Assembly: GCA_902560725.1 (NCBI GenBank)
Contig: CACEMR010000008.1
Coordinates: forward strand, 1 to 61,378
Source of the DNA: an uncultured Alphaproteobacteria bacterium
GTDB taxonomy: Bacteria > Pseudomonadota > Alphaproteobacteria > HIMB59 > GCA-002718135
Direction of reading: 5' to 3'
DNA length: 61,378 nucleotides
The notes beneath the pieces are model-generated. The model had not been told where the DNA came from. It searched no databases and saw nothing but the letters and a program-made list of their open reading frames with translations. Positions 35,306-60,046 of this stretch are shown piece by piece (within the stretch, counting starts at the first letter, position 1; each line of letters begins with the position of its first letter). A program made the translations under genes and the position numbers.

Positions 35306-36343
35306 TTAATATTTTTTTCCTGCTTCAACTAATCGTGATAATTTTGCTCGTGTAATTTCAAGAGGAACGTGCCCAAAGCCACATTCACTAGATAAAATAA
35401 TTCTATCAGCACCAAACTTTTCAATAACAGGCTTAATTCTCTGATGCACTTCTTCTACACTTTCAAGTTCATCAGTTCGTTGATCAACAACCCCAAAAGA
35501 TAGATTTCCTTTAAAGTCATATTTTTCAAAAACATCCAACATACTATAATGAAGAGTACAATGTTCTAAATGTAATTCTTGAACTTTAAGTTTTTTAAGA
35601 CCATCTACCATATCATCATATTTTCCAAAATAACCTCGTTTTCTATGTGCGTTTCCCCCACAAATATGAAGGCTGAAATACATATTTGGAAATGTATCAA
35701 CAATATCATTAATTACATCAGCAGCCCATACACATTCATCCGGAGATTCAGTAAGAACAGGTTCATCAAATTGAATTCTCTCACAACCTAATTGTTGTAA
35801 TTGATCAATTTCATCTTTTATACATTTACCATAAGCATAAGCCAATTCAGTATCATTTTTATATAAATCAGTTCTTTCGTTAACAGAAAATCTTGATAGC
35901 ATATGAGGTCCAGTAATTGTTTGTTTCACAACAGCTCTGTCACCAGCAGTATCTTGAGCCCTCTTCCATTTTGAAGCTAAATTCCATTTCTGATTTTTTA
36001 TTTCATCATTTACAACTGCACACTCTATACCAAATCCACCTTTTTCTTTTACTAAAGGATGAGCTTTTGATAAATCAACATTTTCAGTTGATCCCCCGAC
36101 TGTAAATTGTTTATACTTTTTATTTTTACTATCTACCCCATCAATTCTTAATTGATAGAACCAATACATATTTTCCCTATATGATTCACCATCGGTAATA
36201 TAATCCAAACCAATATTACATTGATCTTCAACAGCCCATTGAACCATATCTAAAGCTTCTTCCTCACTAACTGTAGGCTTTCTTAATGTATCTTTTGGTT
36301 TATCTTTTCGTGGATAGCTTCCAACAGTTGTAGTTTTTAACAT
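35306..36343 (-). CDS. MetE-like (cobalamin-independent methionine synthase C-terminal domain) protein
   Basis: A 345-residue stand-alone TIM barrel matching the catalytic C-terminal half of MetE. The likely zinc ligands are H226-x-C228 in SLHICGG, Glu near 260 in LHLEHC, and C321 in SSECGFGHVP; the substrate Asp is D193 in QFDEPVL. The N-terminal half of true MetE, which helps bind polyglutamyl folate, is absent, so the methyl donor or even the reaction may differ. It forms a minus-strand operon behind an NAD-dependent epimerase (11-base gap), in a sugar-catabolism setting. Confidence 0.75.
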   Translation of the reverse strand: MLKTTTVGSYPRKDKPKDTLRKPTVSEEEALDMVQWAVEDQCNIGLDYITDGESYRENMYWFYQLRIDGVDSKNKKYKQFTVGGSTENVDLSKAHPLVKEKGGFGIECAVVNDEIKNQKWNLASKWKRAQDTAGDRAVVKQTITGPHMLSRFSVNERTDLYKNDTELAYAYGKCIKDEIDQLQQLGCERIQFDEPVLTESPDECVWAADVINDIVDTFPNMYFSLHICGGNAHRKRGYFGKYDDMVDGLKKLKVQELHLEHCTLHYSMLDVFEKYDFKGNLSFGVVDQRTDELESVEEVHQRIKPVIEKFGADRIILSSECGFGHVPLEITRAKLSRLVEAGKKY

Positions 36344-36354
36344 ATTCTTCCTTT

Positions 36355-37329
36355 TTATATTGGGTTTAAATCATTAGCAATTCTAGCCTCATTCATGTGA
36401 GCTCTAATTCCTTCTTTAAGACTTTTTGGAACAAATGACAATTCTTCTCGAATGCGTTGATCATTTTGATCATCAATAAAAGGAGTTGGTTTTCCATTTT
36501 CGTCAAAAGTTATTTCTGCATTTGGAATCAATTCATTAATTATTTGTTTTAATTCAGTTCCTGAAGCAGTTTCTGAACCGGTATTATAAACAAAATGATT
36601 CAATTTTTCTTTTAAACTCAATTCAATAAATTGCTCTGCACAATCTTCTACGTAAATATAATTATCTTTATTTGATTCAGGAAAAGGAAGATGAACTGGC
36701 ATTTCTAATGCAGGATTTGTAGCAAATTCTTCAGCCCACATTAATGAACTGCGTTTTCTGCCATAACCAAATACAACTGATGGTCTTGTGCACGCAATGC
36801 TAACGTTATGCATTGAGACATATTTTTTAGCCATAAACTCGTTTAATAATTTCATAACTGCATATGTAAATAATTGATGTTGCAGTCCACAATAATCATC
36901 TTCATGTATAGGTTTATCATTAAACAGTTTTGACGATTTGCCATAAACACTTTGACTACTTGGAAAAACCATTCTATGTATTTTGTTATCTACAACAGCC
37001 TGGAATAGATTTGTCATTCCAACTATATTAACTTCAGTTCCTTTAATTGGGTTATTATCAATAAGATTACTCATTTGATATCCACAAGCAATAATGTTCG
37101 AGATTTTATAATTTTTAAAAATCTTACTTAAATTCTCTTTGGAAGAAATATCTAATTCTAATAACTCTAAATCTTTAATTGAAACACCCTTAGTAGATAA
37201 ATATTTTTCAAAACTATCCTTTTCATTGTCTGTGTTAATATCTGTAGCTATCACTTTAATATTCTTTGATAATAACTGTGCAACTACTCTTTTGCCAATA
37301 AATCCCGTTCCACCAGTTACCAAAAACAT
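36355..37329 (-). CDS. NAD-dependent epimerase/dehydratase
   Basis: A 324-residue extended SDR with the nucleotide-binding GGTGFIGKR at residues 6-14, Ser residues in VFPSSQSVYG near 132, and a Tyr-x-x-x-Lys in FTYAVMKLLNE. It acts on a nucleotide sugar or, like uronate dehydrogenase-type members, on a free sugar acid; the sequence alone does not decide. First gene of a minus-strand operon with the MetE-like gene, divergent from the ribose-type binding protein across an operator-rich gap. Confidence 0.78.
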   Translation of the reverse strand: MFLVTGGTGFIGKRVVAQLLSKNIKVIATDINTDNEKDSFEKYLSTKGVSIKDLELLELDISSKENLSKIFKNYKISNIIACGYQMSNLIDNNPIKGTEVNIVGMTNLFQAVVDNKIHRMVFPSSQSVYGKSSKLFNDKPIHEDDYCGLQHQLFTYAVMKLLNEFMAKKYVSMHNVSIACTRPSVVFGYGRKRSSLMWAEEFATNPALEMPVHLPFPESNKDNYIYVEDCAEQFIELSLKEKLNHFVYNTGSETASGTELKQIINELIPNAEITFDENGKPTPFIDDQNDQRIREELSFVPKSLKEGIRAHMNEARIANDLNPI

Positions 37330-37360
37330 ATTAATATTTCTTAATTATTTGATAATATTG

Positions 37361-37497: not shown

Positions 37498-38517
37498 ATG
37501 AAAATAGTTAGTTGGTTCTTAGCAGCTATTATTACTTTATCTTTAGCTATGTCAGTTTCAGCTAATCCAAAAAGGATTGGTTATATTGTAAACTATGGTA
37601 CTCACGAGTGGTATCAAAACGTTATATTTGGATTACAATCTAGAGCTGATGAATTAGGTATTGAGTTAGAAGTAATGGATGCGAATTTAGATATTAATAA
37701 ACAAACTCAACAAGCTGAAGATTTCATGACTAAAGGAGTTGATGTTTTAATCATGACACCAGTTAATGAGGAAGGGGTTGTTCCAATTTTAAGAAAAGCA
37801 AAGGCAGAAGGAATGCCAACTGTTCTTGAAGGAAACCCTGCAAAAGGTATGACAACCTTGTTTGCAATTTGCGATTATGATGCTGGTTATAAAGCTGGAG
37901 ATGCTGTTGGAAGAATCCTTGTATCAAGAGGTGAGTCTGAAGCAAGAGTAATGGATGTAGGATTACCGTTACTGTCTGCAACTCTTTTAAGATCTCTTGG
38001 TTTCATGGAAGCAATAGCTAAACATGTAGATGCAGTAAAAGTACATGAACTAGATGGTTCCGGTATGATTGATAGTTCAGTTGAAGTTGCTTCTGCTGCA
38101 CTAGCTGCTGATTCAAACATTAATGTTATTTATGGTATTAATGATGGATCTGCTCTTGGTGGATTACAAGCTTGGAGAGCTGCTGGTTTACCAGAAGATG
38201 ATCTTATTGTTGCTGGAACAGGAGCAGAAGGTTTAGCATTTTTGAATGAAATGACTAAAGAAGGAACTCCATATCTAGTTGAAGCTGCTATGTTTCCAGA
38301 AGGTGTAGGATACACAGGTATGAATCTTGCTGTTGATTTATTTAATGGTGTAGATGTACCAGAACATAAAGTAACTCCAACTTTAGCATTAACAGTTCAT
38401 AACTATGCTAAGTACTATGACTTTGACAAAGCTGGACAAAAAAGAGCTATTAATTTTGCAAATGTAGCTAATATTCCAACGGAAACAAAGTGTACTAAAT
38501 ACGCTTCTGATCTGTAA
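37498..38517 (+). CDS. Ribose-type (Peripla_BP_4) substrate-binding protein
   Basis: A 339-residue periplasmic protein with a signal peptide (about residues 1-22, ending SVSA) and the RbsB/LacI-like two-lobed fold: KRIGYIVNYGTHEWYQNVI at the mature N-terminus, GVDVLIMTPVNEEG near 80, and NVIYGINDGSALGGLQAW near 205. A GGGAGG ribosome site precedes the ATG. It feeds the RbsCAC-like genes downstream. The ligand is probably a monosaccharide or sugar acid. Confidence 0.88.
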   Translation: MKIVSWFLAAIITLSLAMSVSANPKRIGYIVNYGTHEWYQNVIFGLQSRADELGIELEVMDANLDINKQTQQAEDFMTKGVDVLIMTPVNEEGVVPILRKAKAEGMPTVLEGNPAKGMTTLFAICDYDAGYKAGDAVGRILVSRGESEARVMDVGLPLLSATLLRSLGFMEAIAKHVDAVKVHELDGSGMIDSSVEVASAALAADSNINVIYGINDGSALGGLQAWRAAGLPEDDLIVAGTGAEGLAFLNEMTKEGTPYLVEAAMFPEGVGYTGMNLAVDLFNGVDVPEHKVTPTLALTVHNYAKYYDFDKAGQKRAINFANVANIPTETKCTKYASDL

Positions 38518-38578: not shown

Positions 38579-39514
38579 ATGAAATATTTTCAAACAAATG
38601 AATCAATACTTTTTGGTTTACTAGTATTGCTATGTATATTTTTATCTTTTTACAATCCGCAATTTTATAGTATTCAAAATATTCATAGTATACTGCGTTC
38701 AAGCTCTACAGTCATGATAGTTGCATTTGGAATGACTATTCTTTTAACAAGTGGCGAAGTTGATTTGTCAGTTGGGGCTTTAATGTCATTTGTTACTGTA
38801 ATTGTAATGGATGTTATAAATATAACAGGAAGTATTTCTCTTGGATTAATAGCAGTTTTTGGATTTTGTCTTTTAATTGGTTTAATCAATGGACTAGTTA
38901 GAACAGTTTTAAATGTAAATTCTTTGATAGCAACATTAGCAATGATGCTAATACTTCAAGGCAGTGTATATGTTTATTCTATGGCTGCTATATACAATAC
39001 ACATTTGATTCCATTATTTAGTTTTATTGGACAAGGTTTTTTCTTAAATATTCCAATGCCAGTTGTTATAATGTTATTTATTTTACCTTTTTTTGTAGTT
39101 TTACTAAATTACACTAGATACGGAAGATATTTCTCTTCAATTGGTAGTAATCCTGATGCTGCTAAATTATCAGGCATTAATAATAATAGGTATAAGGTTT
39201 TAGGTTTTGTTATTACTTCTCTTTTAGTTGGAGTGTCTGGAGTAATTCTTGCTTCTTTAATGGATACGGGTCAGCAAGGATCAGCAAAGGGTTTTGAACT
39301 AATAGTAATTGCTGCTGTTCTTTTAGGTGGTACAAGTTTTATGGGAGGTAAAGGAACAATTATTGGAACTATTTTAGGAATATTAATTTTAAAAATTATT
39401 GATAATGGAATAATTTTAATGAGAATACCTCAAGAATTTCAACTCATTGTGCCAGGCTTTATATTAATATTAGCAGTTTATTTTGATGGTATCAGGAAAA
39501 AAAATAGTGGTTGA
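38579..39514 (+). CDS. Ribose-type ABC permease, first copy (RbsC-like)
   Basis: A 311-residue inner-membrane permease of the BPD_transp_2 family with many helices. Typical segments are ILLTSGEVDLSVGALMSF near 55-72 and LLGGTSFMGGKGTIIGTILG near 248. It is followed by the ATPase gene with an overlap of about 30 bases and then by a second permease of the same family, so the pore is probably a heterodimer. Confidence 0.87.
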   Translation: MKYFQTNESILFGLLVLLCIFLSFYNPQFYSIQNIHSILRSSSTVMIVAFGMTILLTSGEVDLSVGALMSFVTVIVMDVINITGSISLGLIAVFGFCLLIGLINGLVRTVLNVNSLIATLAMMLILQGSVYVYSMAAIYNTHLIPLFSFIGQGFFLNIPMPVVIMLFILPFFVVLLNYTRYGRYFSSIGSNPDAAKLSGINNNRYKVLGFVITSLLVGVSGVILASLMDTGQQGSAKGFELIVIAAVLLGGTSFMGGKGTIIGTILGILILKIIDNGIILMRIPQEFQLIVPGFILILAVYFDGIRKKNSG

Positions 39515-41003
39515 TATAAATTTTAAAGAATTAAAGATTGAATCAGTCAGTAAATCTTTTCCCGGTGTGCAAGCTTTAGATAATGTAAGTATGAAAATTT
39601 CTGCTGGAAAAGTTCACGCACTTATGGGAGAAAATGGTGCTGGTAAGTCAACTCTAATTAAAATTTTAGCAGGAGCTTATTCAAAAGATACAGGTAATAT
39701 TTTATTTGATGAAAATAAGTTAAATATCAGAAATCCAAATGATAGTTTAAATTATGGAATTAAAGTTGTTTATCAAGAAATCTCACTCATCTCTGAATTT
39801 TCTGTAGCTGAAAATATATTCTTAGATAATTTTCCTACAAATAGTTTGGGTGTGATGAATTGGAATAAACTTTATAAAGATACAGAAGAGCTATTTAACA
39901 GAGTCGGTTTTAATTTAAATCCAAAATCTAAAATTGCAGATTTATCTATTTCTCAACAACAAATGGTTGAAATTGCAAGAGCTGTTTTTAAAAATGCTTC
40001 TGTAGTTATAATGGATGAACCAACTTCTTCTCTAACTCCTAATGAAATTGAAAAATTATTTACCGTTATAAAAAATTTAAAGCAGAACAATATAGCAATT
40101 TTATATGTAACTCATAAAATTGATGAAATTTTTAAAATAGCTGATGAAGTTACAGTACTAAGAGACGGACAACATATTTCAAATAAATTAATATCTGAAA
40201 CTAATGAAGAGCTCATTATTAAGGATATGGTTGGCAGAACTGTAAATGCAACATTTGAAAGACCTAAAGATATTTTAAATGCAAAAACAGTCATGAAGGT
40301 TAACAAAATTAGTTCTAAGAATAAAATTAAAAATGTTTCATTTGATTTACATGAAGGTGAGATTTTAGGCTTTTTTGGACTTATGGGCGCAGGAAGAACT
40401 GAATTAGCAAAAGCTGTTTTTGGTTATGATAAAATTACTGACGGACAAATAGAAGTTAATAATAATATTTATAAAAGCTTTAATACATCAACAATGGTTA
40501 ACAATGGTATTGGTTATATTACTGAGGATAGAAAAGGTGAGGGTATTGTTAAAGATATGAATTTAAGAGAAAATATGAGTCTACCTAGTCTTAAAATATT
40601 TGAGGATTTATTTATTATTAATCAGAAAAAAGAAAAGAAGGCAGCAGATGAATATATTAAAAAATTTTCAGTAAAAACACCTTCCTCTGAGAGATTAATA
40701 ACCCTTTTAAGTGGTGGCAATCAACAAAAGGTTTTAGTTAGTAGATGGCTAATAAGAGAATTAAAAATAATAATCCTCGACGAACCAACACGTGGTGTTG
40801 ATATAGGAGCTAAAACAGAAGTATTAAGTTTAATTAATGATCTTGCTAAACAAGGACTGTCAGTACTCCTTATGACTTCAGAAATGAATGATCTTTTAAG
40901 TCTTAGTGATAGAATATTAGTAATGGCTGATGGTAAAATTAGTAAAGAATTTTATCGAGGCAAAGTTACACAAGAAGAAATATTTAAGGCATCAGTAAAC
41001 TAA
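39486..41003 (+). CDS. Ribose-type ABC transporter ATPase (RbsA-like, tandem domains)
   Basis: A roughly 505-residue protein with two ABC ATPase domains, as in RbsA/MglA. Domain one has Walker A GENGAGKST near 48-56 and Walker B VVIMDEP. Domain two has the usual degenerate P-loop (GLMGAGRTELA), the signature LLSGGNQQKV and the Walker B IIILDEPTRGVD. The ATG at 39486 is chosen over a TTG three bases upstream. Either start lies inside the permease gene, so translation is coupled. Confidence 0.88.
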   Translation: MVSGKKIVVDINFKELKIESVSKSFPGVQALDNVSMKISAGKVHALMGENGAGKSTLIKILAGAYSKDTGNILFDENKLNIRNPNDSLNYGIKVVYQEISLISEFSVAENIFLDNFPTNSLGVMNWNKLYKDTEELFNRVGFNLNPKSKIADLSISQQQMVEIARAVFKNASVVIMDEPTSSLTPNEIEKLFTVIKNLKQNNIAILYVTHKIDEIFKIADEVTVLRDGQHISNKLISETNEELIIKDMVGRTVNATFERPKDILNAKTVMKVNKISSKNKIKNVSFDLHEGEILGFFGLMGAGRTELAKAVFGYDKITDGQIEVNNNIYKSFNTSTMVNNGIGYITEDRKGEGIVKDMNLRENMSLPSLKIFEDLFIINQKKEKKAADEYIKKFSVKTPSSERLITLLSGGNQQKVLVSRWLIRELKIIILDEPTRGVDIGAKTEVLSLINDLAKQGLSVLLMTSEMNDLLSLSDRILVMADGKISKEFYRGKVTQEEIFKASVN

Positions 41004-41004
41004 A

Positions 41005-41952
41005 ATGAATAATATTTTGAAATATTTAAGAAAAGGTGAATTAGCATTATTTATAATTTTTTTAATTGTTTTTATAATTTTTTCTTTTAGTTCGGAATAT
41101 TTTTTTACCTTGCGTAACATTATGAATGTTTCAGGTCAGTTGTCTATTATTCTAATTGCTGCAATTGGTTTTTCAGTTTTACTAATTGCTGGTGAAGTAG
41201 ATATTTCAATTGGATCTCTTCTAGCATTTGTATCACTGCCACTAATAGAAATTATGAATATTACTGGAAGTGTTCCTTTAGGAATAATTTTATGTTTAAT
41301 ATTTGGAATTATTATTGGTCTTATCAACGGATATTTATCTGTCTATCTAGGTGTAAGCTCCTTAATTGTAACACTAGGTATGTTATTTATCCTTAGGGGT
41401 GCTGTATATCTTTATACCGGTCAAAGAGCTATTCCAGATGAATTAATGTCAGATTTCTTTTTTTATATTGGTAATGGTAAATTTATGGGAACCATCCCTT
41501 ATGCAGCTATAATAGGATTGGTTATTTTATTAATATTTATATTTGTAATGCGAAACACCAGTTATGGAAGAAAATTATATGCTGTTGGTGGTAATCAAGA
41601 AGTTGCTCGATTAGCTGGATATAACATAAAACTTTTAAAATTAAGTGCATTTGTTATTTGCTCTTTTCTTAGTTCTATAAGTGCAATAATTCTTGCATCA
41701 AGAATTGGATCTGCAAATCATGTTGCAGGAGATTTATTTGAATTTCAAGTGGTTGCAGCAGTAGTATTAGGCGGTGTTAGTCTAGCAGGCGGTATTGGAT
41801 CTTTAACTGGAGCAGCAATTGGCGTATTGATTTTATCAGTAATTTCTAATGGATTAGGATTATTAAATATTGATACACAATGGCAATTAGTTGTTAATGG
41901 CGTAATAATAATTATTGCTGTAGGATTTGATGAATTAAAACGAAATAGATAA
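41005..41952 (+). CDS. Ribose-type ABC permease, second copy (RbsC-like)
   Basis: A 315-residue inner-membrane permease homologous to the one at 38579 (shared LLIAGEVDISIGSLLAFVSL and VVLGGVSLAGGIGSLTGA segments) but clearly diverged from it. It begins one base after the ATPase stop. Two different permeases around one ATPase are seen in several sugar systems of this class. Confidence 0.87.
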   Translation: MNNILKYLRKGELALFIIFLIVFIIFSFSSEYFFTLRNIMNVSGQLSIILIAAIGFSVLLIAGEVDISIGSLLAFVSLPLIEIMNITGSVPLGIILCLIFGIIIGLINGYLSVYLGVSSLIVTLGMLFILRGAVYLYTGQRAIPDELMSDFFFYIGNGKFMGTIPYAAIIGLVILLIFIFVMRNTSYGRKLYAVGGNQEVARLAGYNIKLLKLSAFVICSFLSSISAIILASRIGSANHVAGDLFEFQVVAAVVLGGVSLAGGIGSLTGAAIGVLILSVISNGLGLLNIDTQWQLVVNGVIIIIAVGFDELKRNR

Positions 41953-41975: not shown

Positions 41976-42776
41976 ATGACTGATTTAAAAAATAAAGTTG
42001 CAGTTGTTACTGGAACAGCATCAGGAATAGGAAAAGCTATAGCAACTAGTTTCGTTAACTCTGGAGCTAATGTTGTATTATCAGATGTGAATGTAGAACT
42101 AGGTGAACAAGTTTGCGCAGACTTACAGAAAATCAATTCAAGTGTTACATTTGTTAAAGCTGATGTTTCTAAAGAAGAAGAAGTAAAAAATGTTATCCAA
42201 ACTGCTGAAAAAAAATTTAATACCCTTAATGTTATAGTAAATAACGCGGCAAGAGCAATTGGTGGTTACCCTGTGACGGATATGTCAAACGAAGATTGGC
42301 ATGCAGTAATCGGTTCCAATTTATCAAGTGTATTTTATGGGTGTAAACACTCAATACCAATTTTTAAAAAAATAGGCGGAGGTTCAATAATAAATATAGC
42401 TTCTGCACAAGCTCATACCCCTCTTCCAGGTTGGGCAGCATATGCCGCAACTAAAGGAGGAATAATATCCATGACAAGACAGCTCGCAACAGAGTTTGGT
42501 CCTTATAATATAAGAACTAATTCTATATCTCCAGGAACTATAAATACTGAGATGGTAAAACAAGTTGTTGCTGAAGATGGAACAGGAAAACTATTTGAAG
42601 AACAATTAGGTATGCATCCCATTGGAAGAATTGGTGAACCAAAAGAAATAGGAGCTACAGCAGTATTTCTAGCATCTGATGGAGGCGCTTTCGCTAATGG
42701 TGCTGATTTTAGAGTAGATGGAGGACTTACAATTACACCAAGAATGAAACCTGGAGCAGGCTCACGTAGTAAATAA
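41976..42776 (+). CDS. Short-chain dehydrogenase/reductase
   Basis: A 266-residue classical SDR with TGTASGIG at residues 13-20, NNAARAIGG, the catalytic Ser in IINIASAQAH and YAATKGG, and an Asp after strand 2 (VVLSDVNVEL) pointing to NAD+. An AAGGAG ribosome site precedes the ATG. It is the first catabolic gene after the ribose-type transporter and probably performs the first oxidation of the imported sugar or sugar acid. Confidence 0.85.
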   Translation: MTDLKNKVAVVTGTASGIGKAIATSFVNSGANVVLSDVNVELGEQVCADLQKINSSVTFVKADVSKEEEVKNVIQTAEKKFNTLNVIVNNAARAIGGYPVTDMSNEDWHAVIGSNLSSVFYGCKHSIPIFKKIGGGSIINIASAQAHTPLPGWAAYAATKGGIISMTRQLATEFGPYNIRTNSISPGTINTEMVKQVVAEDGTGKLFEEQLGMHPIGRIGEPKEIGATAVFLASDGGAFANGADFRVDGGLTITPRMKPGAGSRSK

Positions 42777-42781
42777 TTTTT

Positions 42782-44014
42782 ATGGAAGATAAATCAGCAT
42801 TAAGTGGATTAAAGGTTTTAGATTTTAGTCATCTTTTGGCTGGACCCTTTGCTACACAAATTTTAGGAGATTACGGAGCAACTATTTACAAGATTGAAAG
42901 AGCTGAAGTAGGAGATGATTATAGGCGCTGGCATTTTTTCAATAAAAAAGTTGGAGGAACACAAGCAGCTACATTTTTATCGTGGAATAGAAATAAAAGA
43001 TCTTTAGCCATAGATATGAAAAGTACTAAAGGTAAAGATATTTTATATAAGATGGTTAAAGATTGTGATGTTGTAATCCAAAATTTCAGACCGGGAGTAA
43101 TGAGCAAACTTGGTTTTGGATTTGAGGATTTGAAAAAAATAAATCCAAAAATAATTTATTGTAATGGATCTGGCTATGGAAGAACAGGTCCGTATGCGAA
43201 GAGACCAGGGCAAGATATTTTAATACAAGGAATGTCTGGACTTACGTATAACACTGGAAGAGCTGATGGACCTCCAGTAACTGTAGGAGCAGGAATGGCA
43301 GATCAATTAGGATCTTACAATATGGTAATTAGTATTTTATCTGCAGTTTATTACAGGGACAGAACTGGAAAAGGCCAGGAAATACAGATAGATTTATTAA
43401 GTGCTCTTTTACAGCATGAACTTCAAGAATTTGTTGCTGTTCTTAACCTAAATCAAGAATTTGAAAGAGCAAATTCTGGTATTGGTCATCCAGGAACTGC
43501 AGCACCTTTTGGAGTTTATAAAACCAAAGATAAATATATAAGTATCGCAATTGCATCACTTGAACTTTTAGCTGAGGTGTTAGAAGATGAAACAATATCG
43601 ACTAATTATAAAGATGATGGTCCTAAAGGAGCGTTTGGATCTCAAATCCAATTTACTAAAAGAGATGAAATATTTAATCATATAGAAAAAAGAACAATTG
43701 AGTATACGAGTGAATATTTACTCAATACCTTGTTAGACAAAGGTGCTTGGGTTGCTCCTGTTTATAAACATTTAGAAGTTTTAGATGATCCTCAGGTTCA
43801 ACATATGAAAATGTTTACTAGCTATAGTCATGAAAAATATGGCACTGTTCATACTGTATCTCCAGCAGCAAAGATGAGTGAAACTCCTCCTAAAATTTCT
43901 AAACCTGCCCCTTTAGTGGGAGAGCATAGCTATGAAATATTGCAAGAATTCGGTTATTCTATTGATGAAATTAAACAATATGAAGAAGAAAAAATAATAA
44001 CTGTAGAAAGTTAA
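42782..44014 (+). CDS. Family III CoA-transferase (CaiB/BaiF)
   Basis: A 410-residue family III CoA-transferase. The N-terminal motif KVLDFSHLLAGPFATQILGD and the catalytic Asp D174 in GAGMADQLGSY are conserved, as is the YCNGSGYGRTGP segment. Such enzymes move CoA between carboxylic acids such as oxalate, carnitine, succinate or mesaconate. It lies six bases after an SDR gene and six before a mutarotase-fold gene within a sugar-acid operon, an unexpected place for a CoA-transferase. Confidence 0.87.
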   Translation: MEDKSALSGLKVLDFSHLLAGPFATQILGDYGATIYKIERAEVGDDYRRWHFFNKKVGGTQAATFLSWNRNKRSLAIDMKSTKGKDILYKMVKDCDVVIQNFRPGVMSKLGFGFEDLKKINPKIIYCNGSGYGRTGPYAKRPGQDILIQGMSGLTYNTGRADGPPVTVGAGMADQLGSYNMVISILSAVYYRDRTGKGQEIQIDLLSALLQHELQEFVAVLNLNQEFERANSGIGHPGTAAPFGVYKTKDKYISIAIASLELLAEVLEDETISTNYKDDGPKGAFGSQIQFTKRDEIFNHIEKRTIEYTSEYLLNTLLDKGAWVAPVYKHLEVLDDPQVQHMKMFTSYSHEKYGTVHTVSPAAKMSETPPKISKPAPLVGEHSYEILQEFGYSIDEIKQYEEEKIITVES

Positions 44015-44019
44015 TATTT

Positions 44020-45036
44020 ATGAGTGAAAAAATTTTACTTAATTGGAAAGGTGGAGAAGTTGAAGTTGATACATTGGGATGTAAAATGATTCCCATATTC
44101 AATTTTGATGGAAAAAAAATTAAACCACTCCATGAGCCTGATTGGCTTGAAGATAACTCAGAAGATTTTAATTCACTTCCAGGTATACTTCAAAACCTTA
44201 AAGGGGAATTTCCATGTGTTCCTTTTGGGATTAATTCTCCTGTTGAAGCACTTACGAAAGAATGGGAAAAATCATATTCTGAAGAACCATACATTGTAAA
44301 TGAACCACATGGTTATAGCTCAAATAAAGATTGGGAATTAATAGAAAAAAAATCAAATAAACTAGAATTTAAAATACATTATCCTGAAAACGATTTAGTT
44401 GATTTTCTAGTAAGAACTATTCAAGTTCAGGATGATGACCCTAACAAAATATTTTGCACACTTCAAATACATGTAAAAGAGGATTGTGAATTACCAATTG
44501 GCTTGCATCCGATGCTACGCATACCAAAAAACATGTCAAAAATAAAAATAAATCCAGGTAATTTTAAATTTGGACTTAACTATCCAGGATTAGTTTTAAA
44601 AGATAAAACATTAGGAGCTATAGGGAAAGAGTTTTCTACATTAGAAAAAGTTGAGGGATTTAATGGAAATATCATAGATATCTCAAAACCACCATTTGAA
44701 GGAAACTTTGAAGACCTCTTTCAGCTTTGTGGTATTGATGGCAATATGTCATTTGAGAATTTTGAAGATAATTACAAATTTAATTTTTCATGGAACCCAG
44801 ATCATTTTTCTTCAGTCCTTATGTGGGTTAGTAATAAAGGCAGAACAGAATATCCATGGAATAGCAATCATGTAACAGTTGGTTTTGAACCAATTTCATC
44901 TGCTTTTGGACTATCAACGCATATATCTTTGAATAAAGAAAATCCGATATCTAAAAGAAATGTAGCAACTAGTATAAAACTTTTTAAAGATAAACCTCTT
45001 TATTCAGATTATTCATTTTCTGTAAGCAATCTATAA
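44020..45036 (+). CDS. Galactose-mutarotase-fold (aldose epimerase-like) protein
   Basis: A 338-residue protein resembling aldose 1-epimerases by the order of likely active-site segments: an early EPHGYSSNKDW, then LPIGLHPMLRIP near 155-166, and TVGFEPISSAFG near 285. It is longer and more diverged than the family member at 23546. It may be a mutarotase for the sugar brought in by the upstream ribose-type transporter. No signal peptide. Confidence 0.68.
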   Translation: MSEKILLNWKGGEVEVDTLGCKMIPIFNFDGKKIKPLHEPDWLEDNSEDFNSLPGILQNLKGEFPCVPFGINSPVEALTKEWEKSYSEEPYIVNEPHGYSSNKDWELIEKKSNKLEFKIHYPENDLVDFLVRTIQVQDDDPNKIFCTLQIHVKEDCELPIGLHPMLRIPKNMSKIKINPGNFKFGLNYPGLVLKDKTLGAIGKEFSTLEKVEGFNGNIIDISKPPFEGNFEDLFQLCGIDGNMSFENFEDNYKFNFSWNPDHFSSVLMWVSNKGRTEYPWNSNHVTVGFEPISSAFGLSTHISLNKENPISKRNVATSIKLFKDKPLYSDYSFSVSNL

Positions 45037-46767
45037 ATGAAACTTTCATCTAAATTTAAATCTTTAAATCATCTATCTGGTCTTATTAAAAATAATACTT
45101 CTATAGGAATAGGAGGTCATCACTTTGCGAGATTGCCAATTGCATTGATAAATAATTTATTAAAAAATAAACCAAAAAATTTAGAATTTATTAGCTGGTC
45201 AGGAGGTTTAGCATTAGAACTTTTTCTACAAAAAAATTCAGTTAAAAAAATTCAAATTTGTTTTTCAAGCTTGGATATTTTTGGACTTGCACCTTTGTTT
45301 AGAAAAACTTGTGAAAATAAAAAAATTGAAGTTATAGATTGGTCTGCTCTTGGATTAATCAAGGCATTACGTGCAGGACAACAAAATATAGACTCTGAAA
45401 TATTTCAATACCCCTGGGGATCTGATTTACCCATAAAAACAAAATTTTGTAAAAAGTTTAAAGACCCTATTTCAAAAAATCAGTTTGCAATTGTCCCATC
45501 TTTAAAAATTGATAATTTTCTCCTTCATGCAAGTAGAGCTGATGAAGATGGAAATGTAGAAATTCTAGGTCCTCGTGCTTTAGATACTATTATGGCTGGT
45601 GCTAGCAAGCAAGTGATTGTAACAGTTGATGAAGTTGTATCTAGAGATATTTTAGCACGTGAAAAGAAAGGAAGTCTTATTTCTAAAAACTTTATCAAAG
45701 CGATTGCCCATATCCCTTACGGTGCGTATCCAACTTCCTCAGTACCTTACTATATAACCGATTACGAAGATCTTAAAAATGCTTTTTTAAAGACACCACT
45801 TAAAATTGGAACAAGTTTTAAAAAAAATAAACAATTTGTAACTAAGTCAAACAAATTAGGTTCTAAATTTTTTAAAACCTATCTAGCTAAAAATTACAAG
45901 AATAAAAAATCTAAAGAAAAAATAACAAGTGATGAAATAATGGCCTTTGCATTAGCAAATGAATATAATAATAATAGTTTATGCAGTTCTGGTGCTGTAT
46001 CTCCATTAGCAAACGTTTCTTATTTTCTCGCAAAAAAACTTCACGCTCCTAAATTAATACTTACAACGATGACATATGGACATCATGATGTGAGTTTCAG
46101 ACCAATGACTTTGTCTTTTAGTGAAGTTTTAGATAGAGAAACATGTATAAATTATTGGGGAGGTGATGACTCATATAGTATTTATTATCAAAATGGTCAA
46201 ATAACTCACGAAGTTATAGGAGCGGCACAAATTGATAAATATGGAGATGTTAATAATATTGAGATTAAGAAAAAAAGTGGAGGCGTTCTCAGATTACCAG
46301 GTCAAGGCGGTATGGCAGATGTATGTAATCTTCATCAACATTTTGTTGGTTATGTCACTAAACATTCTAAATTAAGTTTTGTTGAAAAAGTAGATTATGT
46401 TAGTGCTGGTAGAGGCTTATTCAAAGATAAAGATAGATTAAGAGCAGGCTTAAAACCAGGTGACGTTAAAATATTTACGAATTTGTGTATTTTTGAAAAA
46501 AATAAAAAAACTGGTTTATTAGAAGTTACTAGTATTCATAAAGGTGTTACAAAAAAAGATATTGAGCAGAATACATCGTTTAAAGTGAAATATAAAAAAG
46601 GTTGTAAGATAACTAAAATGCCAACAACAAGTCAATTAAATGTATTAAGATATATAGTTGACCCACTTAATATTAGAAAGTTAGAGTTTACAAGTGGAGA
46701 AGAAAGAATAAAATTACTTGAAGAAATAATTAGAAAAGAAAAAAAGTTAATTAAAAACTTAAACTAA
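45037..46767 (+). CDS. Family I CoA-transferase, fused alpha and beta subunits (GctAB/IpdAB-like)
   Basis: A 576-residue protein in which two normally separate subunits are joined. Residues 1 to about 270 resemble the alpha subunit (IGIGGHHFARLPIALINNLL; FLLHASRADEDGNVEILG), and about 300 to 576 resemble the beta subunit (GAAQIDKYGDVNNIEI; VLRLPGQGGMADVCNLHQHF; KVDYVSAGRG). Relatives include glutaconate CoA-transferase and the ring-opening hydrolase IpdAB. It begins directly after the mutarotase-like gene stop. Whether it transfers CoA or hydrolyses a CoA ester of a cyclic diketone cannot be decided here. Confidence 0.78.
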   Translation: MKLSSKFKSLNHLSGLIKNNTSIGIGGHHFARLPIALINNLLKNKPKNLEFISWSGGLALELFLQKNSVKKIQICFSSLDIFGLAPLFRKTCENKKIEVIDWSALGLIKALRAGQQNIDSEIFQYPWGSDLPIKTKFCKKFKDPISKNQFAIVPSLKIDNFLLHASRADEDGNVEILGPRALDTIMAGASKQVIVTVDEVVSRDILAREKKGSLISKNFIKAIAHIPYGAYPTSSVPYYITDYEDLKNAFLKTPLKIGTSFKKNKQFVTKSNKLGSKFFKTYLAKNYKNKKSKEKITSDEIMAFALANEYNNNSLCSSGAVSPLANVSYFLAKKLHAPKLILTTMTYGHHDVSFRPMTLSFSEVLDRETCINYWGGDDSYSIYYQNGQITHEVIGAAQIDKYGDVNNIEIKKKSGGVLRLPGQGGMADVCNLHQHFVGYVTKHSKLSFVEKVDYVSAGRGLFKDKDRLRAGLKPGDVKIFTNLCIFEKNKKTGLLEVTSIHKGVTKKDIEQNTSFKVKYKKGCKITKMPTTSQLNVLRYIVDPLNIRKLEFTSGEERIKLLEEIIRKEKKLIKNLN

Positions 46768-46779
46768 AAGGAGGAATTA

Positions 46780-47619
46780 ATGGAGCCAATTTTAGATTCA
46801 GATAAAGCAAAAGTTTATTTTGATGGAATATTTTCTAATCCAAGATTGCAACATCCTGAAGGTGTTGCTCTAGACAATGAGGGTTATGTATATTGTGGAA
46901 CAGAAAATGGAGAAATAATGAAAATTGAAAAAGATAAATCTAAAATGGAATGCTTAGCTAGTAGTGGTGGATTTATCTTAGGTATAGCAATCGATAAAAA
47001 AAATAATGTTTTTGCTTGTGAAATGAAAGAAGCTGCACTTTACAAGTATGATAGTAGTAATAAATCTTTTAAAGAATTTGCAAAAGGTCCTAAAATTCCA
47101 AATTATCCTGTAATTGATCAAAATCGAAATTGCGTTTATGTTTCTGATAGTTTTGGATTTAATGAAAAGGGCATTGGTTTATATAGATTCGATTTATCAA
47201 CTGGAGAAGGCGGCCCATGCTCTGAAGAGTTATTTAATTTTGCAAATGGTATGTGTTTATCTCCCGATGGTTCTTTTTTATATGTTGTAGAGTCATTCCA
47301 TCCTTGTGTTTCTCGATTACCAATTAATGATGATGGTTCTTTTGGGAAAAAAGAAATTTTTACAGAGGATATTGCTGTAGTTCCAGATGGTTTGGCATTT
47401 GATAAAGAAAATAATTTATTTATTAGTTGTTATGAGCCATCTAGAATTTATATGGCTGATACAAAAGGCAATACTAAACTTCTGATAGAGGATAAAATTT
47501 GTACCACAATGGCCCATCCTACAAATATAGTGATTTCGGAAGATGGGAATACTATGTATACTGCAAATTTAGGTAGATGGCATATTACCGAAATAGATAT
47601 TTCTAGTTTATACAAATAA
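46780..47619 (+). CDS. SMP-30/gluconolactonase-family protein
   Basis: A 279-residue beta-propeller lactonase. Visible family segments are HPEGVALDNEGYVYCG (Glu metal ligand, about 25-40), FANGMCLSPDGSFLYVVES near 150-168 and VPDGLAFDKENNLFISCYEP near 195-214, with the Asn/Asp residues of the calcium/zinc site. A GGAGG site precedes the ATG. It lies between the fused CoA-transferase and KDG kinase genes; a sugar-lactone substrate is expected. Confidence 0.85.
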   Translation: MEPILDSDKAKVYFDGIFSNPRLQHPEGVALDNEGYVYCGTENGEIMKIEKDKSKMECLASSGGFILGIAIDKKNNVFACEMKEAALYKYDSSNKSFKEFAKGPKIPNYPVIDQNRNCVYVSDSFGFNEKGIGLYRFDLSTGEGGPCSEELFNFANGMCLSPDGSFLYVVESFHPCVSRLPINDDGSFGKKEIFTEDIAVVPDGLAFDKENNLFISCYEPSRIYMADTKGNTKLLIEDKICTTMAHPTNIVISEDGNTMYTANLGRWHITEIDISSLYK

Positions 47620-47624
47620 AATAA

Positions 47625-48536
47625 ATGCGCATCTGTTCGATAGGTGAATGTATGATTGAGTTATCGAATATTGATGAAAATACTTATAAACTTAGTTACG
47701 CAGGAGATACTGCTAATTCGGCAATTTATCTTTCAAGATTGGGCGCTAAATCATCTTATATTACTTCTGTTGGGAATGATCTTCTTAGCAAGAAAATGGT
47801 TAATTTTTTAAAACAAGAAAAAGTAAAGATCCACAATATTCATTATAATAAAAATAAGACTATAGGTTTATACGTTATTAAAAATAATAACAAAGGTGAA
47901 AGAAATTTTTTTTATTGGAGATCTGATTCAGCTGCTAAAAGTTTATTTGAAAATGTAAATCTTAATATATTGTTAAATAAACTTTCTCAATATGAAGCAA
48001 TTTATTTTTCTGGCATTACTTTATCAATATACGATCAAAAAAGTATTAATAGATTTTATAAACTCTTAAGATTATTAAAAAAGAGTGGAATAAAAATTTA
48101 TTTTGATTTTAATGTTCGAATAAAAAATTGGAGTAATAAAAAAAATGCTCAAGAGTCTATAATTAAATTTAGTCAGATTTCTGATATTATTTTTATGACA
48201 ACTGAAGATTTAAAAAATTTGGGTTTAAGAAAATCTAAATATATTACACCAATAAATACTAAGAACAAAATTATTGTATTCAGATTAGGTAATGGAAATG
48301 TGAATGTATATAATACGAATAAAATAGAAAAATATAAATTTTATTTAAATAAAAATGTTAAAGATACTACCGGATGTGGAGATGCATTCAATGCTTGCTT
48401 TCTTTTTAATTATTTTAAAAATAAAAAAATTGAAGAGTGTTTGAAATTATCACATAATCTTGGAAAAACTGTTGCAAATTTTAAAGGAGCGATTATTCAC
48501 AAAGATTATTTCAAAGTAAAAAATTATGTCAAATAA
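47625..48536 (+). CDS. kdgK: 2-keto-3-deoxygluconate kinase (PfkB family)
   Basis: A 303-residue PfkB sugar kinase. The sugar-binding YAGDTANSAI is at 26-35, the FYWRSDSAAK segment near 97-105 is typical of KDG kinases, and the catalytic Asp is D253 in DTTGCGDAFNACF. It phosphorylates 2-keto-3-deoxy-D-gluconate to KDPG. Its end overlaps the aldolase gene by 11 bases, which agrees with consecutive steps. Confidence 0.87.
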   Translation: MRICSIGECMIELSNIDENTYKLSYAGDTANSAIYLSRLGAKSSYITSVGNDLLSKKMVNFLKQEKVKIHNIHYNKNKTIGLYVIKNNNKGERNFFYWRSDSAAKSLFENVNLNILLNKLSQYEAIYFSGITLSIYDQKSINRFYKLLRLLKKSGIKIYFDFNVRIKNWSNKKNAQESIIKFSQISDIIFMTTEDLKNLGLRKSKYITPINTKNKIIVFRLGNGNVNVYNTNKIEKYKFYLNKNVKDTTGCGDAFNACFLFNYFKNKKIEECLKLSHNLGKTVANFKGAIIHKDYFKVKNYVK

Positions 48537-49077
48537 ACTAATTCAAACTATAAAGTTGCAAAAAGTTATACCAATTATTGGTAAAGGTACTGAAAGACAA
48601 ATCACAAATAAATTTAATAGACTTGTTTCAGAAAGTTATAATTTAATCGAAATAACATTAAGAAGTGATGAAGCTTTAAAAACGGCAGTTAAACTTAAGG
48701 AACAAAATCCAAATATCAATATTGGAATTGGTTCAATAAAGTCCTTATCTGTTCTTGAAGAAGTAATTAAATTGAAATTTGATTTTTATGTTTCACCAGG
48801 TATTAGTCAAAAAATGTTAGAAATCTCAAAAAAAAATAATATTTTTTATATACCAGGAGTATCTACTCCATCTGAAATTTTAACAGCATTAGAGTATGGT
48901 TTTAAAATTTTAAAATATTTTCATGCTGAACAAAATGGAGGAGTACATTCACTTAAAGTTTTAGATGATATTTATAATGAAATTCTTTTCATACCGACTG
49001 GCGGCATTAATAAAGATAATATGAAAAATTATTTTAACCTGAATAATGTCATAGCAGTAGGGTCAACTAATATTTAG
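48526..49077 (+). CDS. eda: KDPG (2-keto-3-deoxy-6-phosphogluconate) aldolase
   Basis: A 183-residue class I aldolase. The catalytic Glu is E42 in IEITLRSDEA, and the Schiff-base Lys is K130 in ILKYFHAE, matching LKFFPAE of known enzymes. PTGGINKDN near 157 is the phosphate site. The C-terminus stops at AVGSTNI, about 20-25 residues shorter than usual, losing the last helix. With the kinase it yields pyruvate and glyceraldehyde-3-phosphate, completing the Entner-Doudoroff-type route for sugar acids. Confidence 0.87.
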   Translation: MSNKLIQTIKLQKVIPIIGKGTERQITNKFNRLVSESYNLIEITLRSDEALKTAVKLKEQNPNINIGIGSIKSLSVLEEVIKLKFDFYVSPGISQKMLEISKKNNIFYIPGVSTPSEILTALEYGFKILKYFHAEQNGGVHSLKVLDDIYNEILFIPTGGINKDNMKNYFNLNNVIAVGSTNI

Positions 49078-57009: not shown

Positions 57010-58065
57010 TTAAAGACTGTTAATTAATCCCTTTATATATCCCACCGCATAAGCCATACCTGAATGCCAAGGAGCTGAACAGTTTAAAGCTGGTGTATGA
57101 TCAGGAATTATCACTCCATCATAATTGTTTCTTTTTAAGATTTTAATTACATTAACCATATTTATATCGCCATCATCCACAAATGCTTCAACATAATTAG
57201 GAACTTTACCATTAACATTTCTAAAATGAATATAACCAATGCGTTTATCTTTAGAATATTTATCCAAGTAATACTCAAGACCATTTTCTTCCATTTCTTG
57301 AATTGACCCAAGGCACATTTCAATTTTATTACTAGTGCTCTTATTAATATCAATAAGTCTATCATATTCACTTGGATTTTTTAAAACTCTACCCGTTCTT
57401 CTTAATACAGCAAGAGGAGGGTCATTTGGATGTGCTGCAAGTGCAACATTATTTTCCTCTGCAATTGGAAGTAATTGATTTAGAAAAAATTCTAATCTTT
57501 CCCAAACTTCATTCTCATTTGTTTCTGGAACAAATTTATTAGGCTCACCTACTCTGTAACGCATATTCCAAATCATTCCATCTGGTATTGGTTCTTGAAA
57601 ATCTCTGCTTCCTTCAACTAAAGCAACAGACTCAGCTTTGCCTCTGGCATATTGACCTCTTTCCCATCCCCAAACTCCAGCTAAACTAAAACAATAACCC
57701 ATAATAGGAATTCCTACTTTACCCATATTTTGTAAAAGACGTTTTAATCCCTCTATTTGTTCAATTTTTTTTGGACCATCGAGTAATATGTCATGCCAGT
57801 GTAAAGGATTAAAATTTTCAATTGCTTCAAATACTAAATTATGCTCCTGCATTTCTTTTTTTAAACCACTTAAAAATTCAATATCCCAAATTGGTTCTTT
57901 ATCACAAATACCCCAGCCATTATTGCCGCCTGATGAAATTTCAGGGTTAGACCCTGAAAAATAATTTGTTAAATGAGCAACTATGTGTGTAGCTCCTATT
58001 TGATTAACAAATCTATAATTATCAACAGTTAATGAATTTCTATAAAGTCCAAAGCCTAGTTTCAT
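57010..58065 (-). CDS. uxuA: Mannonate dehydratase (UxuA family)
   Basis: A 351-residue TIM-barrel enzyme. The metal ligand motifs appear in order: His in AAHPNDPP, Cys in EMCLGSIQE, His in YIHFRNVNG, and Asp in VIIPDHTPAL. This is the UxuA pattern for dehydration of D-mannonate to 2-keto-3-deoxygluconate, which the kdgK/eda pair at 47.6 kb could process. The ATG at 58065 is preferred to an in-frame TTG at 58071. It is divergent from the IclR regulator gene and is a likely regulatory target. The slightly unusual sequence around the substrate site leaves room for another aldonate. Confidence 0.85.
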   Translation of the reverse strand: MKLGFGLYRNSLTVDNYRFVNQIGATHIVAHLTNYFSGSNPEISSGGNNGWGICDKEPIWDIEFLSGLKKEMQEHNLVFEAIENFNPLHWHDILLDGPKKIEQIEGLKRLLQNMGKVGIPIMGYCFSLAGVWGWERGQYARGKAESVALVEGSRDFQEPIPDGMIWNMRYRVGEPNKFVPETNENEVWERLEFFLNQLLPIAEENNVALAAHPNDPPLAVLRRTGRVLKNPSEYDRLIDINKSTSNKIEMCLGSIQEMEENGLEYYLDKYSKDKRIGYIHFRNVNGKVPNYVEAFVDDGDINMVNVIKILKRNNYDGVIIPDHTPALNCSAPWHSGMAYAVGYIKGLINSL

Positions 58066-58104
58066 AAACAAACAAATACACCATCTTCTTGAATAATCAA
58101 TTTA

Positions 58105-58127: not shown

Positions 58128-58934
58128 ATGGACAAAAAAAATTATAGCGCACCTGCATTAGATAAAGGATTAGATATTCTTGAACTTCTTGCAGTATCTG
58201 CCTCAGGTTTGACTCAGGCTGAAATCGCTGAACACTTGAATAAATCAGTTAATGAAATTTATAGAATGTTAAACACTTTAAAAGTACGTAATTATCTAGA
58301 ATTTGATAGTTCGACAGATAGTTATAAACTTTCATATAAATTATTAAATTTATCTGCTTCTTTTAATCCCACAAAAACTTTACTTCAAAAAGCAACTCCT
58401 ATAATGCGAGAAATGACTACTCTAATAGGACAATCAATTCATCTGTCTATTTACACTGCTGGAAAGCTGCTTGTGATAGCACAAAATGATAGCGGCTCTA
58501 AATTTAATTATCATGTTACTGTAGGATCTACATTTGATTTATTAGAAACATCATCGGGAAGAGTTATTTTGACTTTTCAATCTGATAAAGAAAGAGAAAG
58601 AAGATTAGAAAGAAGAAAAACTTTTATATCATTTGATAAAAAATCTAATCTTCCAAAAACAACAATAAAAGAACTTGAAAAAAAATATACTAAACAAACT
58701 ATCCATAAAATAAAAAAAGATGGTTGTGAAATTGTAAAGAGTTTACAAATTTCAGGTATTACAAATATTTCTTTTCCTATTTTTGATTACTCCGGATATG
58801 CAATTGCAGCATTAACTACTCCTTTTTTGAATAGATTACATGGAAATAAAGTAAATATTAATAAAGCAAGTTCAATAATGTCAAAATACACTATTAAAAT
58901 ATCAAATGAATTAGGTTATGAAAGTAAATATTAA
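58128..58934 (+). CDS. IclR-family transcriptional regulator
   Basis: A 268-residue regulator with an N-terminal winged helix-turn-helix (ALDKGLDILELLAVSASGLT, then AEIAEHLNKSVNEIYRMLNT, about residues 10-55) and a C-terminal IclR effector-binding domain (SSGRVILTFQ; GCEIVKSLQISGITNISFPI). It is divergent from uxuA, followed by an RraA-like aldolase, and is the only recognisable transcription factor in the window. It probably senses a sugar acid such as 2-keto-3-deoxygluconate (by analogy to KdgR) and controls nearby catabolic genes. Confidence 0.87.
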   Translation: MDKKNYSAPALDKGLDILELLAVSASGLTQAEIAEHLNKSVNEIYRMLNTLKVRNYLEFDSSTDSYKLSYKLLNLSASFNPTKTLLQKATPIMREMTTLIGQSIHLSIYTAGKLLVIAQNDSGSKFNYHVTVGSTFDLLETSSGRVILTFQSDKERERRLERRKTFISFDKKSNLPKTTIKELEKKYTKQTIHKIKKDGCEIVKSLQISGITNISFPIFDYSGYAIAALTTPFLNRLHGNKVNINKASSIMSKYTIKISNELGYESKY

Positions 58935-58942
58935 TTAGATCT

Positions 58943-59590
58943 ATGCCAAATTTTACAGAAAGATTATCTAAATGTTATACAGGAGTAGTGCATGATATAA
59001 TGCGTGATATGGAATATAAAAATTTTACATTATCTCCTGACATTAAACCTTGTAAAAATAATCATGTTCTAGCAGGTCAAATCTTTACTATTGAGGGTCA
59101 AGTCGATCAAAATCAAACCCATCACGAATCATTATTAGCATGGACAGGTTTTTTATCAAAAGCTCCAAATGATAAAGTTATAATTTGTCAGCCAAACACA
59201 AATGAGGTTGCCCTAATGGGTGAACTATCAGCAGAGACTCTTCAATTGCGAGGAATAAGGGGCTATATTGTTGATGGCGGTTCAAGAGATATGGATTTTA
59301 TTCTAAAAATTGATTTTCCAGTTTGGAGTAAATTTTTTACACCTCGTGATGTAGTAAAATTCTGGAAGCCTACAAAATTTGAACAAAAAATTCGCATTGG
59401 AGATGTTGAAATAAATAATAATGATTATGTTTTGGCAGATATTGATGGGGTTGTCATTATTCCTCAAAATAATATTGAGGAAATAATTATTAAATCGGAA
59501 GAAAAAATAAATTCTGAAAATTTAGTAAGAAAAGCAATCAAAGAAGGAACAGATCCTCAAGAAGCTTATAAAAAATACAGTGCTTTTTAA
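58943..59590 (+). CDS. RraA-like aldolase/decarboxylase family protein
   Basis: A 215-residue protein of the RraA/HMG-CHA aldolase fold. The metal/substrate signature GYIVDGGSRDMD has Arg115 and Asp116, and VLADIDGVVIIPQ near 150 is conserved. Members include 4-hydroxy-4-methyl-2-oxoglutarate aldolase and oxaloacetate decarboxylases as well as the RNase E inhibitor RraA. The catalytic Arg-Asp pair and the sugar-acid neighbourhood favour an aldolase cleaving a 2-oxo acid to pyruvate. It lies eight bases after the iclR-type gene, in its operon. Confidence 0.8.
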   Translation: MPNFTERLSKCYTGVVHDIMRDMEYKNFTLSPDIKPCKNNHVLAGQIFTIEGQVDQNQTHHESLLAWTGFLSKAPNDKVIICQPNTNEVALMGELSAETLQLRGIRGYIVDGGSRDMDFILKIDFPVWSKFFTPRDVVKFWKPTKFEQKIRIGDVEINNNDYVLADIDGVVIIPQNNIEEIIIKSEEKINSENLVRKAIKEGTDPQEAYKKYSAF

Positions 59591-59593
59591 TTA

Positions 59594-60046
59594 TTATTTT
59601 TGTTCTTTTCTCTCAACTAATAATATGTGCTCTGAATAACTCACGCATTTTTTATTTTGATTTTGCACATCACAGGCTTCGACAACAATTCCGAATTTAG
59701 GTCTTTTCGGATCATCTTTTTTTTCCTTTATTGTTACAATTGTTGTAATCGTATCACCAATAAATACTGGATTGGGAAATCTTAATCTATCAAAACCATA
59801 AGTAAATGCTCTCGGATTTATTTGACCTGCTGTCAGAGCTATACCTATAGAGTGAGTTAGACTAAATTGTGCAACTCTTTGTCCAAATGGTCCTTTCTTC
59901 GCAAATTCTGCATCTACATGATGTGGAAAGAAATCACCTGAATGCATTGCATGCATGACTATATCAGTCTCAGTTATTGTTCTACCAGGAGTTGTTCTTT
60001 GATCACCTACGCTGTAATCTTCAAAATATTGTTCAACTTCTATCAT
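59594..60046 (-). CDS. MaoC-family hot-dog dehydratase
   Basis: A 150-residue single hot-dog domain of the MaoC/(R)-specific enoyl-CoA hydratase family. The motif MHSGDFFPHHVDAEFA carries the likely catalytic Asp38 and His43, followed by ALTAGQINPRAFTYGF. Enzymes of this type hydrate or dehydrate CoA esters such as mesaconyl- or crotonyl-type CoA. It is convergent with the RraA-like gene and divergent from the PanB-like gene. An acyl-CoA substrate would connect it with the CoA-transferases at 42.8 and 45.0 kb (inference). Confidence 0.8.
   Translation of the reverse strand: MIEVEQYFEDYSVGDQRTTPGRTITETDIVMHAMHSGDFFPHHVDAEFAKKGPFGQRVAQFSLTHSIGIALTAGQINPRAFTYGFDRLRFPNPVFIGDTITTIVTIKEKKDDPKRPKFGIVVEACDVQNQNKKCVSYSEHILLVERKEQK

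Follow-up and report, generated by a model that had tools for sequence, protein, structure and literature searches.

In a 61,378-nucleotide contig of an uncultured alphaproteobacterium of the HIMB59/AEGEAN-169 group (the whole stretch analysed, hereafter the window), an 11-gene operon combines a sugar-type ABC transporter, sugar-oxidizing enzymes and two proteins of coenzyme A (CoA)-transferase families: the family III protein CaiB and a fused protein related to both halves of glutaconate CoA-transferase (GctAB). As a genomic inference, a CoA-ester step in sugar catabolism has good support. Read from sequence, the operon itself stands about an even chance of being an accessory unit for a sugar-like compound, the acid derived from which would be degraded as a CoA thioester.

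An earlier, sequence-only reading of this DNA had described a run from CaiB through a mutarotase-fold gene, GctAB, a lactonase and the kinase KdgK to the aldolase Eda. That run is exact in the open reading frame (ORF) list for coordinates, strand and gaps (5, 0, 12, 5 and −11 bases; all six ORFs on the + strand), and its families, the mutarotase-fold gene apart, are matched by Pfam. The operon is larger, beginning with a periplasmic binding protein (37498) and ending with Eda (49077; Table 1). The identical order is seen at four complete loci and a fifth, partial one in other HIMB59/AEGEAN-169 genomes: binding protein–permease–ATPase–permease–short-chain dehydrogenase/reductase (SDR)–CaiB–mutarotase–GctAB–lactonase–KdgK–Eda. 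Co-occurrence, proposed in that reading as a check, is strict; among about 90 genomes of the genus, 6 carry GctAB and precisely these 6 carry the mutarotase, operon-type CaiB is present at all six loci, and the order of CaiB, SDR, mutarotase and GctAB is kept. A scan of contigs with narrow peptide patterns returned nothing beyond the same five loci. Downstream neighbours vary (AGE-type epimerase and GH38-like ORFs in genome G081, a UxuA-like gene in G036), and the unit is therefore delimited as binding protein to Eda. In G060, which has no operon, the left and right flanks of the window align 13 bases apart, where the window has 20.75 kb between them; the operon is therefore part of an insertion. 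Relative to G060, this insertion covers window positions 37332–58082, a variable genomic island in which the operon is accompanied by a second sugar transporter.

Within the group, few operon proteins are as conserved as GctAB. Ratios of non-synonymous to synonymous polymorphism (pN/pS) are 0.03–0.17 for GctAB and 0.03–0.38 for CaiB, and are highest, up to 0.43, for KdgK and Eda, the fastest-evolving members. The SDR and CaiB each come in two diverged versions, which switch together.

Fused GctAB homologues were sought by profile search, first phylum-wide and then within one genus. Full-length homologues (42–44% identity) are present in 4 of 13 sampled genomes from a genus of another family, with genomes of 6–7 Mb and 64% GC; the genus is probably rhizobial and is called so below. 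Its operon is ordered IclR–binding protein–permease–ATPase–permease–SDR–CaiB–crotonase–mutarotase–GctAB–lactonase (mutarotase frame confirmed in three of the four), with proteins 42–59% identical to their HIMB59 counterparts and a mutarotase at about 35%. Neither KdgK nor Eda is present, and an extra enoyl-CoA hydratase of the crotonase type (ECH_1, 174–184 bits), with both catalytic glutamates present by motif, lies between CaiB and the mutarotase. This crotonase is independent evidence for CoA-ester chemistry. The placement of CaiB and GctAB thus goes beyond chance, the two sharing one operon with the SDR, mutarotase and lactonase in each of two distinct alphaproteobacterial lineages, and the kept order rules out chance proximity of the operon genes. 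The label of a 2-keto-3-deoxygluconate (KDG) kinase/aldolase operon, given on first reading, suits the HIMB59 loci, where KdgK and Eda are present; as a description of the conserved core it fails, the two genes being absent from rhizobial operons and the fastest to evolve. That reading had also named what would undo it, namely relatives found mostly in aromatic or carnitine operons. Only distant homologues (at most 35% identity, separate subunits) occupy steroid, pca and similar clusters, and an aromatic, carnitine or steroid operon was rejected since such clusters hold only distant unfused relatives.

Near the rhizobial operon, in the three genomes examined, lie UxuA (509 bits in G563; cut-off 199.6), a second UxuA-like protein (53–55% identical to that at window 57010–58071), an SDR, an RraA-like protein and a putatively cytosolic protein resembling a substrate-binding protein (SBP). 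The link to KDG is thereby drawn from two sides, UxuA near the rhizobial operon and KdgK with Eda in HIMB59. As a separate observation, a plasmid of Ensifer adhaerens (L139:315-11658) clusters a mutarotase (53%), UxuA (68%), a UxuA-like protein (74%), an SDR and an FAH protein without CaiB, tying the mutarotase family to mannonate-type genes independently of CoA.

Relatives of CaiB recur in sugar clusters. Rhizobial CaiB is 68–71% identical to CaiB of Shinella sp. HZN7, Sinorhizobium chiapasense and S. mexicanum, on whose plasmids a cousin operon encodes CaiB, crotonase, SDR, a mutarotase-like protein (25–29%), a lactonase (50%) and an SBP-like protein. GctAB was seen at none of these three cousin operons, and the HZN7 copy adjoins a differently annotated sugar transporter. 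S. medicae has an aldose 1-epimerase, SDR, CoA-transferase, SBP-like protein, crotonase and sugar transporter in a single run. More distant haloarchaeal relatives (43–46%) accompany MaoC or crotonase in sugar clusters, one of which also has GH88 and an L-rhamnose mutarotase. CaiB together with a hydratase in sugar operons suggests that sugar acids are handled as CoA thioesters. A plasmid search with rhizobial GctAB gave just 26–32% relatives, which are separate CoA-transferase subunits where annotated. Adjoining CaiB and crotonase or MaoC in both HIMB59-group and rhizobial sugar clusters is an SBP-fold protein of about 380 amino acids (start LRGLAWDHRRG or similar), in which no signal peptide is evident by eye and which is probably cytosolic.

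CaiB matches CoA_transf_3 (PF02515) at full length in Pfam (336 bits, residues 7–383). D174 aligns with the catalytic Asp of SUGCT and is invariant in every aligned row, and Gln144 stands at what we take, from MCR, to be the racemase His position; an AMACR-type racemase identity is ruled out by this replacement of His. The domain and the catalytic Asp are common to the family III CoA-transferases SUGCT, formyl-CoA transferase and YfdE; unlike these, the operon CaiB sits among sugar genes and below every named equivalog cut-off in NCBIfam (best 229.9 bits against 750). The neighbouring mutarotase-like ORF has neither a Pfam nor a PDB sequence match. Its AlphaFold2 model (mean predicted local distance difference test score (pLDDT) 80, predicted template modelling score (pTM) 0.82) resembles aldose-1-epimerases and galactose mutarotases (Foldseek E about 1e-13), and the His/His/Glu site of that fold (H97, H163 and E290) is invariant across its homologues.

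The fused GctAB keeps the fold of its family. CoA_trans (PF01144) is matched in two stretches of the single ORF, both halves match glutaconate CoA-transferase relatives (AibA being the best solved match, to the N-terminal half), and the AlphaFold2 model resembles SCOT (Foldseek E 3.5e-23). The motifs GAAQID and RLPGQGG are retained. At the nucleophile site (Glu54 of GctB), PcaJ- and GctB-type rows of the alignment read IYESG, LFEGG and MFEAG, HIMB59 proteins TTMTYGHHD and rhizobial proteins ATMSCGHLD; there is no Glu near this site in any register in all GctAB members checked. The catalytic Glu that the sequence-only reading proposed to look for is therefore absent by alignment, and its pair of CoA-transferases reduces to CaiB, which keeps the catalytic Asp. 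GctAB is probably not a CoA-transferase, because the nucleophilic Glu is missing as it is in IpdAB and AibAB. IpdAB, the COCHEA-CoA ring-opening hydrolase, has no such Glu in its β-subunit, showed no CoA-transferase activity and hydrolyses its CoA ester (PMC5380842); in AibAB, Cys56B replaces the Glu and the enzyme decarboxylates 3-methylglutaconyl-CoA (PMC7756340). GctAB shares with both the family fold and the loss of Glu, with non-transferase chemistry established for AibAB and a CoA-thioester substrate for IpdAB. It differs from IpdAB, which has separate subunits, lies in steroid operons and possesses IpdA Glu105, and from AibAB in its fused chain, its sugar context and the residue at the Cys56B position.

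From gene content and order, families, folds and the catalytic residues kept or missing, we infer the reactions, their order and the type of substrate. The ABC system would import a sugar-like compound, the mutarotase would provide the correct anomer, the SDR would oxidize the sugar to a lactone, and the SMP-30 protein would open this to give a sugar acid. CaiB could then transfer CoA to this acid from a donor such as succinyl-CoA. The thioester would acidify the adjacent carbon, letting a hydratase-type enzyme remove water, presumably the crotonase in the rhizobial operon and, in HIMB59, a protein acting in trans (for example MaoC) or GctAB. Unable to form a glutamyl-CoA intermediate, GctAB may act on the thioester by hydrolysis or as a lyase. 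KdgK would phosphorylate the product, which is probably a 2-keto-3-deoxy sugar acid, and Eda would split it. Streamlined HIMB59 has both enzymes in its operon; rhizobia could draw them from elsewhere in the genome. For KdgK the best NCBIfam model is 2-dehydro-3-deoxygluconokinase (227 bits; cut-off 400); Eda scores 155.7 bits with TIGR01182 (cut-off 156.05) and exceeds the cut-off of PF01081.

Several observations weigh against this pathway. The 11-gene HIMB59 operon has no crotonase, leaving one proposed step with no gene in cis, and UxuA, UxuA-like and IlvD-type dehydratases are available, so that dehydration needs no CoA. The GctAB model is weak at the active-site loop (pLDDT 69 overall, below 50 for residues 345–381). 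The residue aligned with IpdA Glu105 is Ala104 (the E105A mutant chain read against wild type), and the position of AibB Cys56 is Thr346 in HIMB59 and Ser in the rhizobial homologues; with both unmatched, neither the IpdAB nor the AibAB mechanism carries over directly. Among curated family models, no substrate-defining one is exceeded by an SDR, CaiB or hydratase. In the binding protein, aligned to ribose-binding protein, the Asp-Arg, Asp and Gln that we take to be sugar contacts in RbsB are replaced, which makes a plain pentose or hexose an improbable ligand. A CaiB relative in Thioclava adjoins acyl-CoA dehydrogenase, MaoC and AMP-binding genes; the sugar-cluster pattern is therefore not universal for the CaiB family. 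Taken beyond this operon, the proposal becomes more tentative. There may be a widespread route in which CaiB activates sugar acids to CoA thioesters and crotonase or MaoC dehydrates them, replacing direct enolase- or IlvD-type dehydration, with the present operon as a GctAB branch whose fused, Glu-less enzyme has a new specificity; we rate this as possible, at somewhat under an even chance.

In the main rival reading, what is imported is a conjugate of a sugar and an organic acid. Its sugar would follow a CoA-free oxidative route (SDR, lactonase, mannonate-type dehydratase, KdgK and Eda), leaving CaiB, crotonase and GctAB to degrade the acid as a CoA ester in a manner resembling β-oxidation. 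SDR, lactonase, UxuA, KdgK and Eda do make up a complete CoA-free hexose route; a binding protein without the usual sugar contacts fits an unusual ligand; and the G081 operon adjoins two likely GH38 mannosidases and a likely AGE-type epimerase (by eye). We nevertheless consider such a conjugate unlikely, as the operon has no evident enzyme freeing an acid from a sugar, and CaiB, crotonase, SDR, mutarotase and lactonase recur with unrelated transporters, for which one common sugar-acid chemistry is the better fit.

A uronic acid is a less probable substrate again. CaiB would form a uronoyl-CoA, water would be lost between C4 and C5, and GctAB would release the unsaturated uronate, giving 4-deoxy-L-erythro-5-hexoseulose uronate (DEH), which the SDR would reduce to KDG for KdgK and Eda. 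This scheme employs all the enzyme classes present and accounts for the operon having no aldonate dehydratase, and in alginate use SDR-type DEH reductases act ahead of KdgK and Eda. The best solved relatives of the operon SDR, however, include glucose 1-dehydrogenases, with no DEH reductase named among matches at E ≤ 1e-40, and UxuA beside the rhizobial operon indicates mannonate. It is also conceivable, though we think it very improbable, that CaiB and GctAB are passengers or perform no CoA chemistry in a plain semi-phosphorylative Entner–Doudoroff operon. GctAB has no transferase Glu; KdgK, Eda, SDR and lactonase would suffice given a dehydratase elsewhere; and some bacteria of the AEGEAN-169 genus Ca. 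Indicimonas are reported to have parts of this pathway (PMC11366302), which fits the KdgK and Eda of this operon. Yet GctAB is among the most conserved operon proteins and KdgK and Eda the least, and rhizobial operons retain CaiB and GctAB, have an additional crotonase and are without KdgK and Eda.

In textbook sugar-acid catabolism it is the free or phosphorylated acid that loses water, and attachment of CoA to a sugar-derived acid is, to our knowledge, rarely seen for sugars. The earlier claim that known sugar-acid routes need no CoA esters was too strong; deoxyribonate routes have been proposed via glyceryl-CoA and, in Klebsiella, deoxyribonyl-CoA (PMC6365646). The deoxyribose/deoxyribonate cluster of Klebsiella michiganensis resembles the operon in passing from sugar to lactone or acid, in its proposed CoA-bound acids and in having a lactonase and a CoA-transferase (PMC6365646). 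That route uses a CoA-synthetase, 3-hydroxyacyl-CoA dehydrogenase, thiolase or BKACE, and glycerate kinase, whereas the operon has none of these and instead encodes CaiB, a Glu-less GctAB, a mutarotase and KdgK/Eda; by ORF list and Pfam, none of its 11 genes encodes a BKACE, CoA-synthetase, hydroxyacyl-CoA dehydrogenase or thiolase. Alginate/uronate and semi-phosphorylative Entner–Doudoroff routes have the SDR, lactonase, KdgK and Eda end in common with the operon but use no CoA-transferase, crotonase or GctAB, and there the chemistry differs. Literature searches, with most subscription journals outside their coverage, found no published account of the operon.

The HIMB59/AEGEAN-169 group has recently been set apart from SAR11 and described as richer in sugar use (PMC10308909, PMC11366302), a capacity predicted from genomes and poorly understood (PMC10308909). 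The operon offers a testable carbon source for these bacteria, and its rhizobial carriers, being culturable, make testing practical. If correct, the CoA-thioester route would be a second general logic of sugar-acid catabolism, shared by marine bacteria and rhizobia and paralleled by related haloarchaeal clusters. Many CaiB and crotonase genes that are at present mistaken for fatty-acid, carnitine or aromatic enzymes would thereby gain a function.

A second CaiB (35% identical) belongs to a genus-wide cluster (window 58128–60046; L104, L105, L107) with two MaoC proteins, an RraA-like protein, enolase-type dehydratases, an SDR, an FAH protein and an LldD-like protein; in the HIMB59 group this cluster also holds the SBP-like protein. 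The genus thus has another CoA-transferase placed among sugar-acid genes. The MaoC at 59594, suggested on first reading to act with the operon, is part of this CaiB2/fuconate-type cluster. As an operon member it was rejected: it lies outside the inserted stretch and adjoins CaiB2 in operon-free genomes. Help to the operon in trans is possible.

Table 1 Genes of the operon, a possible partner and the SBP-fold protein (window positions unless a locus is named)
Feature	Position	Strand	Evidence and remarks
RbsB-type periplasmic binding protein (Peripla_BP_4)	37498..38517	+	Pfam; 58% identity to rhizobial operon counterpart
ABC permease 1 (BPD_transp_2)	38579..39514	+	Pfam; rhizobial counterpart
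ABC ATPase	39483..41003	+	TTG start as listed; L054 ortholog has 498 amino acids
ABC permease 2	41005..41952	+	ORF list; rhizobial counterpart
SDR dehydrogenase	41976..42776	+	solved relatives include glucose 1-dehydrogenases; 51% in rhizobial operons
CaiB-type (family III) CoA-transferase	42782..44014	+	catalytic Asp174, Gln144; 54% in rhizobial operons
Galactose-mutarotase-fold protein	44020..45036	+	conserved H97, H163, E290
Fused GctA-GctB-like protein, 576 amino acids	45037..46767	+	no catalytic Glu; TTMTYGHHD (rhizobial ATMSCGHLD)
SMP-30/gluconolactonase-type lactonase (SGL)	46780..47619	+	Pfam; 47–50% in rhizobial operons
PfkB kinase, KdgK-like	47625..48536	+	Pfam PfkB; HIMB59 operons only
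KDPG/KHG aldolase (Eda)	48526..49077	+	only PF01081 protein found in genome (90% complete)
UxuA-like protein, possible partner	57010..58071	-	53–55% identical protein near rhizobial operon; adjoins operon in G036
SBP-fold protein, about 380 amino acids	L134:1518-2657, L105:9448-10590, L144:9188-10339, L137:10821-11966, L147:9188-10336		

At window 35306–37329, a divergent pair encoding a short MetE-like protein (345 amino acids) and an NAD-dependent epimerase lies next to the operon at every complete locus; the pair also exists in operon-free genomes. The ORFs adjoining the operon in G081 (L046/L109) are two large GH38-like ORFs and an AGE-epimerase-like ORF, families assigned by eye, which suggest a mannoside source there. 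In G091 (L116), a CaiB-family match adjoins what appears by eye to be an oxalyl-CoA decarboxylase-type gene.

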